64,000 nucleotides of DNA from Calothrix sp. PCC 7507 (lineage in GTDB: Bacteria; Cyanobacteriota; Cyanobacteriia; Cyanobacteriales; Nostocaceae): the NCBI RefSeq assembly GCF_000316575.1, contig NC_019682.1, positions 6,745,501-6,809,500 of the forward strand. The letters run 5' to 3'. Shown in pieces: positions 53,081 through 54,352 of this stretch. Every line of letters starts with the position of its first letter. The stretch's first letter is position 1. Both the position numbers and the translations under genes were made by a program. Under the pieces are notes generated by a model. That model made no database searches. It had not been told where the DNA came from and saw nothing but the letters and a program-made list of their open reading frames with translations.

Positions 53081-54169
53081 ATGTTATTCAAGGATATTCG
53101 TGATTATCAAATTCTCTTTCTCTCTTTATTCTTAGTTTTGGGAATTGGGACAAGGGACTGGACGCTGAAGCCTGAGTTAATTGGCGTGGCGATCGCTACT
53201 TGTTTATTGACTCAAGGGATATTTTCTGTAGTCAAGAGTCAATGGTCAAGAGTCAAGGGTCAAGAGTCAAGAGTTATTTCTCCCTCATCCTCCCTATCTT
53301 CCCAATCCCCAGTCCCCAATCCCCAATCCCCAATCCCCAGTCCCCAATCCCCAGTCCCCAGTCCCCAATCCCCAGTCCCCAGTCCCCAATCCCCAGTCCC
53401 CAGTCCCCAATCCCCAGTCCCCAGTCCCCAATCCCCAGTCCCCAGCCACCAATCCCTTAGTCTGCGTAGTGCGTTGATTACCTCATTGGGACTGAGTTTA
53501 CTATTGCGGGCTGACCACTGGACGACGATGGCTTTAGGGGCAGTTTGTGCGATCGCTAGTAAATTTCTTTTGCGGGTGGGGGATAAACATGTCTTCAATC
53601 CTGGCAATTTTGGGATAATTACCGCTTTGGTATTCACTCCTGACGCTTGGGTTTCACCAGGACAGTGGGGAGAAGACTGGTGGTATGGACTATTATTTGT
53701 CGGGACTGGCGGGATGATTTTGCAACGAGTCGGTCGTTGGGACACTACAGCCGCTTTTTTAGGTGCTTACTCTCTCCTAGAAGCGATTCGCAATCTTTGG
53801 CTGGGTTGGACTTGGGATGTTTACTTGCACCGTTTGATGAGCGGTTCTCTGCTCTTATTTGCCCTGTTTATGGTGACTGATCCTCGGTCAATTCCCAATG
53901 CTCGAATTGGTCGTGTAGTTTGGGCAATGTGCATCGCCATCTTAACTTTTATCTTGCGTAATTATTTCTTTGTCTCCACTGCAGTTTTCTGGGCACTATT
54001 TATACTTGCACCATTAACCATACTGCTAGATGCTCTTTGGTTAGCCCCGAAATTTTCTTGGCGAGGAAAGGGGGAACAGAGAGATGAAGAAGTAGGGGGA
54101 GATAAGGGAGGTGAGGAAGCTATATCCTCCTCATCTTCACTCTTGTTATCCGATCCTTATTCAGGGTGA
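53081..54169 (+). CDS. RnfD/NqrB-family membrane protein with STRR-coded loop
   Basis: The 362-residue membrane protein resembles the RnfD/NqrB subunit fold: helices at [12 protein letters not shown] and [16 protein letters not shown], then after the insert [45 protein letters not shown], and [22 protein letters not shown]. Most of residues ~52-126 is repeat-encoded: first GTCAAGA heptamers ([10 protein letters not shown]), then CCCCAGT/CCCCAAT heptamers giving the seven-residue unit SPVPSPQ about seven times. Three heptamers equal seven codons, so the frame survives. Its substrate is unknown; no other Rnf genes are near. It is followed by a DUF2330 gene. Confidence 0.88.
53233..53276 (+). 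repeat. GTCAAGA heptamers inside the RnfD-like coding frame
   Basis: Six tandem degenerate GTCAAGA/GTCAATG/GTCAAGG units form the first part of the low-complexity loop. Confidence 0.88.
53301..53446 (+). repeat. CCCCAGT/CCCCAAT STRR inside the RnfD-like coding frame
   Basis: About 21 tandem heptamers are read in frame as Ser-Pro-Val/Ile-Pro-Ser/Asn-Pro-Gln units. The array is the longest in the window and is open in several frames on both strands. Confidence 0.95.
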
Positions 54170-54200: not shown

Positions 54201-54352
54201 AAGTCCAAACTTCAACTTCCGAACACCAAACTTCAACTTCCGAACACCAAACTTCGACTTCCGAACACCAAACTTCGACTTCCAAACACCAAACTTCGAC
54301 TTCCAAACACCAAACTTCGACTTCCAAACACCAAACTTCGACTTCCGAAGTC
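54201..54352. repeat. 21-bp minisatellite (CTTCGACTTCCGAACACCAAA)
   Basis: About seven tandem 21-base units differ only at two positions (CGACTT/CAACTT and CCGAAC/CCAAAC). The gap between the RnfD-like gene and the DUF2330 gene consists mostly of it. Because the unit is a multiple of three, both strands stay open. Confidence 0.95.

Follow-up and report, generated by a model that had tools for sequence, protein, structure and literature searches.

The window that we analysed is a 64,000-nucleotide stretch of the Calothrix sp. PCC 7507 genome (contig NC_019682.1, positions 6,745,501 to 6,809,500). It contains a gene for an RnfD-like membrane protein that runs from an ATG start through 362 codons with zero internal stops, and within which two arrays of tandem heptamers lie side by side between the sequences for two helices. 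The features of the locus are as follows.

53081-54169, + strand: RnfD-like membrane protein gene (362 amino acids; PF03116, E = 2.4e-14; RnfD fold, Z 24)
53081-53218, + strand: N-terminal part with helices 1 and 2 (residues 1-46), conserved in all intact orthologues
53219-53461, + strand: variable inter-helix loop between helices 2 and 3 (243 nt, 81 residues)
53230-53274, + strand: GTCAAGA-type heptamer array (6.4 copies by TRF), coding for 14 residues
53301-53456, + strand: CCCCA(G/A)T heptamer array of about 20-22 units, coding for (SPVPSPQ)n
53462-54061, + strand: conserved core with the remaining helices (no gaps among relatives; dN/dS about 0.06)
54062-54166, + strand: variable C-terminal tail with low pLDDT
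54397-55779, + strand: DUF2330 gene (PF10092, E = 2e-73), downstream of the RnfD-like gene

The protein matches the Pfam family NQR2_RnfD_RnfE (PF03116), mainly with its C-terminal half, at 53.8 bits against a cut-off of 27.7, and scores 40.6 bits with the NCBIfam RnfD model, far under the cut-off of 207.05. In an AlphaFold (AF2) model built from 44 window and locus sequences, the membrane core is confident and the loop and C-terminal tail are poorly scored. RnfD and NqrB are by far the best structural matches to this model, with RnfD 8rbq_D at Z 24.0 (rmsd 3.1, 253 residues aligned) and the next unrelated fold at Z 10.9. As PF03116 occurs only once in the whole genome, and a profile search of the genome for rnfC gave a best score of 24.5 bits and nothing that reached the cut-off of 245.95, the protein is an orphan with an RnfD fold and not a subunit of an Rnf complex. 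The covalent-FMN threonine motif of RnfD is of the GAT type, and the GAT tripeptide is absent from the protein sequence. A DUF2330 gene lies downstream of the RnfD-like gene in 61 of 61 named loci of at least 6 kb; the two form a strictly conserved pair.

The longer array contains 19 contiguous exact CCCCA(A/G)T units from position 53307, with one clipped unit on the 5′ side and degenerate units on the 3′ side, and TRF describes it with a period of 21 (7.4 copies, 96% matches), a period of 14 scoring too. The original prediction had counted about 21 CCCCAGT/CCCCAAT heptamers, a fair estimate, and had placed beside them a GTCAAGA array that TRF confirms. Its claim that three heptamers are read as SPVPSPQ, and that the frame is kept through a loop between helices, also holds: the peptide repeats as described, and the open reading frame, the Pfam match and the AF2 model together place it in a low-confidence loop of a real conserved gene. 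The A and G units follow one another as AGG AGG AGG AGG AG, that is, in blocks of three. This order is suggestive of growth by three-unit blocks, as read from a single coding array in a genome in which some intergenic arrays have a period of three as well (L175, L156) and others a period of two. The three-unit pattern CCCCARTCCCCARTCCCCART has 502 matches in the genome, compared with 0 for its reversed control; the array is thus not a product of chance and belongs to a genome-wide repeat class.

In the AF2 model, helix 2 extends to residue 65 and pLDDT stays at about 50-57 across residues 71-120, and the 81-residue loop is predicted to be disordered over most of its length. It is probably cytoplasmic, going by the positive-inside rule. 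The CCCCA(G/A)T array can be read without a stop in each of the three forward frames, every one giving a rotation of a similar heptapeptide, and most reverse frames are open too. We therefore regard two overlapping open reading frames (53200-53460 on the + strand and 53260-53745 on the − strand) as probable by-products of the array.

The flanks of the loop show that it sits inside a maintained protein. Compared with the closest relative, Goleter apudmare (L003), the core is 93% identical with a dN/dS of 0.060, and the N-terminal part has a dN/dS of about 0.09; judged by these ratios, purifying selection on the two flanks is strong. Since both halves are maintained as protein, read-through of the loop is the simplest account. 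On the branch leading only to the genome studied here, the core has 6 synonymous and 3 non-synonymous changes, too few to prove constraint on this copy.

Arrays of this kind belong to the cyanobacterial STRRs, or G-rich heptamer repeats of the form GGGGA(C/T)T, which Rehm et al. 2015 (PMC4692102) describe as scattered over genomes, reaching up to 26 units and being in some cases intragenic. The array has the heptamer type, the tandem arrangement and the genome-wide dispersal of this class; it departs from the mostly intergenic position of the class, which does not disqualify it. We sampled arrays elsewhere in the genome, in 26 regions with about 36 arrays among the matches listed (up to 2.15 Mb), and 0 of these lay between two stretches of conserved coding sequence. 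Three long open reading frames over sampled arrays were considered as further coding arrays and rejected: the tadA-like deaminase, CTP-transferase-like and Sua5/YciO-like genes concerned start after the array. According to the same study, 68% of the 89 G-rich heptamer repeats in Nostoc PCC 7120 are intergenic (PMC4692102), which leaves about one third within genes; perhaps some of these are likewise upstream extensions. The original prediction that a coding array is unusual is thus supported with one qualification: a coding position is uncommon in this genome, yet intragenic members of the class were already known.

We measured the loop, taken as the DNA from helix 2 to the conserved LRSALIT at the start of the core, in 149 orthologues from the Nostocales (mostly Nostocaceae, one genome per species). 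Its length varies from 36 to 396 nt and is a multiple of three in 147 of the 149, and so are 33 of the 35 distinct lengths, for which the binomial P under random frame is about 5e-14 with the remaining relatedness ignored. Frame is also kept in 26 of 26 disjoint nearest pairs with differing loops, a comparison drawn from intact copies only. Array lengths in relatives are therefore strongly non-random with respect to frame. The core is gap-free across relatives, confining length variation to the loop and the C-terminal tail.

Three of the 149 copies are broken at the loop region. Only L111 (Nostoc sp. CMAA1605) and L153 (from genome G211) have out-of-frame lengths; in L014 (Fischerella thermalis PCC 7521) the length divides by three but a stop lies inside. 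In L014 the gene is broken both in and before the loop, its core still being open, and two near relatives are intact.

The array in this genome is recent. The loop has 81 residues here against 24 in Goleter apudmare and 14 in the other closest relative (L004), which indicates that the array expanded after the split from these lineages. On a FastTree tree of 144 cores, pruned of the three broken tips to 141 intact copies, parsimony requires about 69 loop length changes with topology uncertainty ignored, all of them in frame by construction because only intact copies were retained. An alternative reconstruction that included the broken tips put frame-breaking lengths at internal nodes and was replaced by the pruned one. 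Eighteen of the roughly 69 changes are multiples of 21 nt, compared with 9.9 expected (P 0.007), a modest excess, and some other steps, of 3, 6 or 9 nt, do not fit heptamers. In several Nostoc, loops of 39, 60 and 81 nt differ by 21-nt steps, at times between copies with 97-98% identical cores.

The sequences that fill the loop are diverse, with heptamers prominent among them. Periodicity at lag 7 is significant (p < 0.01) in 68 of the 86 loops that are 57 nt or longer, compared with 3-6 of the 86 at lags 5, 6, 8, 9 and 10, and one loop (L012) encodes a heptamer peptide, VICHWSL, repeated threefold. Other loops hold dispersed elements. The element GCGGCTTCCCGCAGGGTA occurs in the loops of three genomes (G007, G143 and G186) and recurs 9 times in the genome of the first and 33 times in that of the second; one palindrome lies in the L021 loop and another in the L063 loop. 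The longest loop (L017 in G032; 396 nt, 132 residues) consists of a distinct repeat, NPFGHKHCAPTPGWG, for which the genome that carries it has 86 matches. In the Calothrix genome itself, GCGGCTTCCCGCAGGGTA is found at 32 places with at most one mismatch, none of them in the loop.

We propose, with a probability of about 0.8, that the loop between helices 2 and 3 is a permissive site that collects genomic repeats, with the reading frame as the main filter. Heptamer arrays would expand and shrink by slippage, and dispersed elements would likewise land in the loop. The heptamers that persist are free of stops in the reading direction, so that any number of units is open within the array and what counts is solely the frame at its exit. 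A loop length that three does not divide would cost the protein its conserved C-terminal helices, and the cross-species pattern suggests that such alleles are purged by selection. The change that remains would be frame-preserving, frequently by three heptamers (21 nt, 7 codons) at a time, and its outcome would be a tolerated, disordered and probably cytoplasmic loop without a function of its own.

Several other readings have to be weighed against this one. The long loop might itself have been selected in this strain, for example as a proline-rich tether or docking segment. Repeats rich in Pro, Ser and Gln typify flexible linkers, this array is both long and close to perfect, and coding repeats in membrane and extracellular proteins of Borgs have been proposed to be functional (PMC9879509). 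However, conservation is lacking in both the sequence and the length of the loop, even where two cores are 97-98% identical; repeats of unrelated kinds are found in this position, and 12-14 residues suffice in close relatives. We consider such selection unlikely.

Less likely still is the original prediction that the gene is a phase-variable (contingency) locus, reversibly toggled by slippage of one or two heptamers. Switches with a 7-bp unit do exist, as in the HMW adhesins of Haemophilus influenzae, and the coding consequences at this locus would be suitable: in simulation, the protein stops after 114-143 residues when one or two units are lost or gained, and a change of three units leaves a product of 355 or 369 residues. 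Accidental gene loss is thus possible, because a change of one or two units truncates the protein. Nevertheless, 147 of 149 loops are in frame, non-random lengths from which we conclude that selection keeps the gene ON at the species level, and none of the three broken copies is clearly a heptamer-count switch. The one out-of-frame copy with CCCCAGT units, that of Nostoc sp. CMAA1605, might be taken for a natural OFF allele, but compared with its nearest relative a single G is missing from a G-run upstream of its array; as the frameshift need not be heptameric and could be a sequencing error, we did not accept it as an example. Neither the neighbouring genes nor the fold has a link to surface antigens, and Rehm et al. 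deem phase variation unlikely for this repeat class (PMC4692102).

A decaying gene, in which the array has disrupted this copy and the protein is no longer made, is very improbable. Of 218 family genomes, 34 lack the RnfD-like gene or a match to it, so that it is dispensable, and a few relatives are broken; against this, the open reading frame is intact, core identity and dN/dS are those of a constrained protein, and the DUF2330 partner is retained. Mis-assembly of the array length is similarly hard to credit: long perfect repeats assemble poorly, but the genome is a single 7.02-Mb contig, the frame is intact where a random length error would break two in three, and similar loops occur in many independent assemblies.

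The proposed permissive site has parallels in several known systems. Vioque reportedly described, in 1997, STRRs within the RNase P RNA gene of heterocystous cyanobacteria; as in the loop studied here, heptamers are tolerated in a loop of a functional product, which there is an RNA and carries no frame constraint. The small dispersed repeats of Nostoc, which Elhai and co-workers are said to have presented in 2008 as very short mobile elements, can be likened by description to the short elements inserted in the RnfD-like loop of several Nostoc. With the repeats of Rehm et al. 2015 the array shares the heptamer family and, here too, an orientation in which the G-rich strand is non-coding, the one that is less avoided; the excerpted text of that study follows no coding array across orthologues and reports no frame-filtered change in loop length (PMC4692102). 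Palindromic elements of Rickettsia occur as in-frame insertions in proteins (Ogata et al., as cited in PMC3733652), which likewise places repeat DNA in functional genes; those are dispersed palindromes in many genes, whereas here tandem heptamers enter one recurrent loop. Borg tandem repeats can be coding and yield segments that are disordered, often within proteins of the membrane or the cell exterior, but all their coding units are divisible by three, whereas here three 7-nt units jointly keep the frame (PMC9879509).

Heptamers within genes have thus been reported before; what appears to be new in detail is that one inter-helix loop has been colonised again and again under a frame filter. 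More tentatively, this one loop could be a recurrent landing and growth site throughout the heterocystous cyanobacteria, its length a continuing log of repeat activity with frame as the only filter, and some lineages may use the resulting disordered segment. The locus amounts to a natural experiment: one protein loop has changed length some 69 times, half of them through 7-nt repeats that are not multiples of a codon. It would allow one to measure the strength of frame selection on repeat expansion and the way in which non-coding repeats turn into protein sequence. It also carries a warning, as arrays open in every forward frame mislead ORF callers and phase-variation screens.

Elsewhere in the genome, CCCCA(G/A)T arrays lie directly upstream of the start codons of a cytidine-deaminase-like gene (L176:2536-2647), a CTP-transferase-like gene (L177:2637-2790) and a Sua5/YciO-like gene (L166:2518-2608) and share an open frame with these genes, so that ORF callers could falsely extend the proteins. 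At the locus itself, the gap between the RnfD-like and DUF2330 genes is occupied by a 21-nt tandem repeat, CCAAACTTCGACTTCCGAACA (54205-54349; about 7 copies, 97% matches). Furthermore, the C-terminal tail is variable too, and repeat-like peptides such as GEMGSRGAGEMGSRGDGEQ and CRDAINRVSTG are found in the tails of relatives (L007, L038 and L039).
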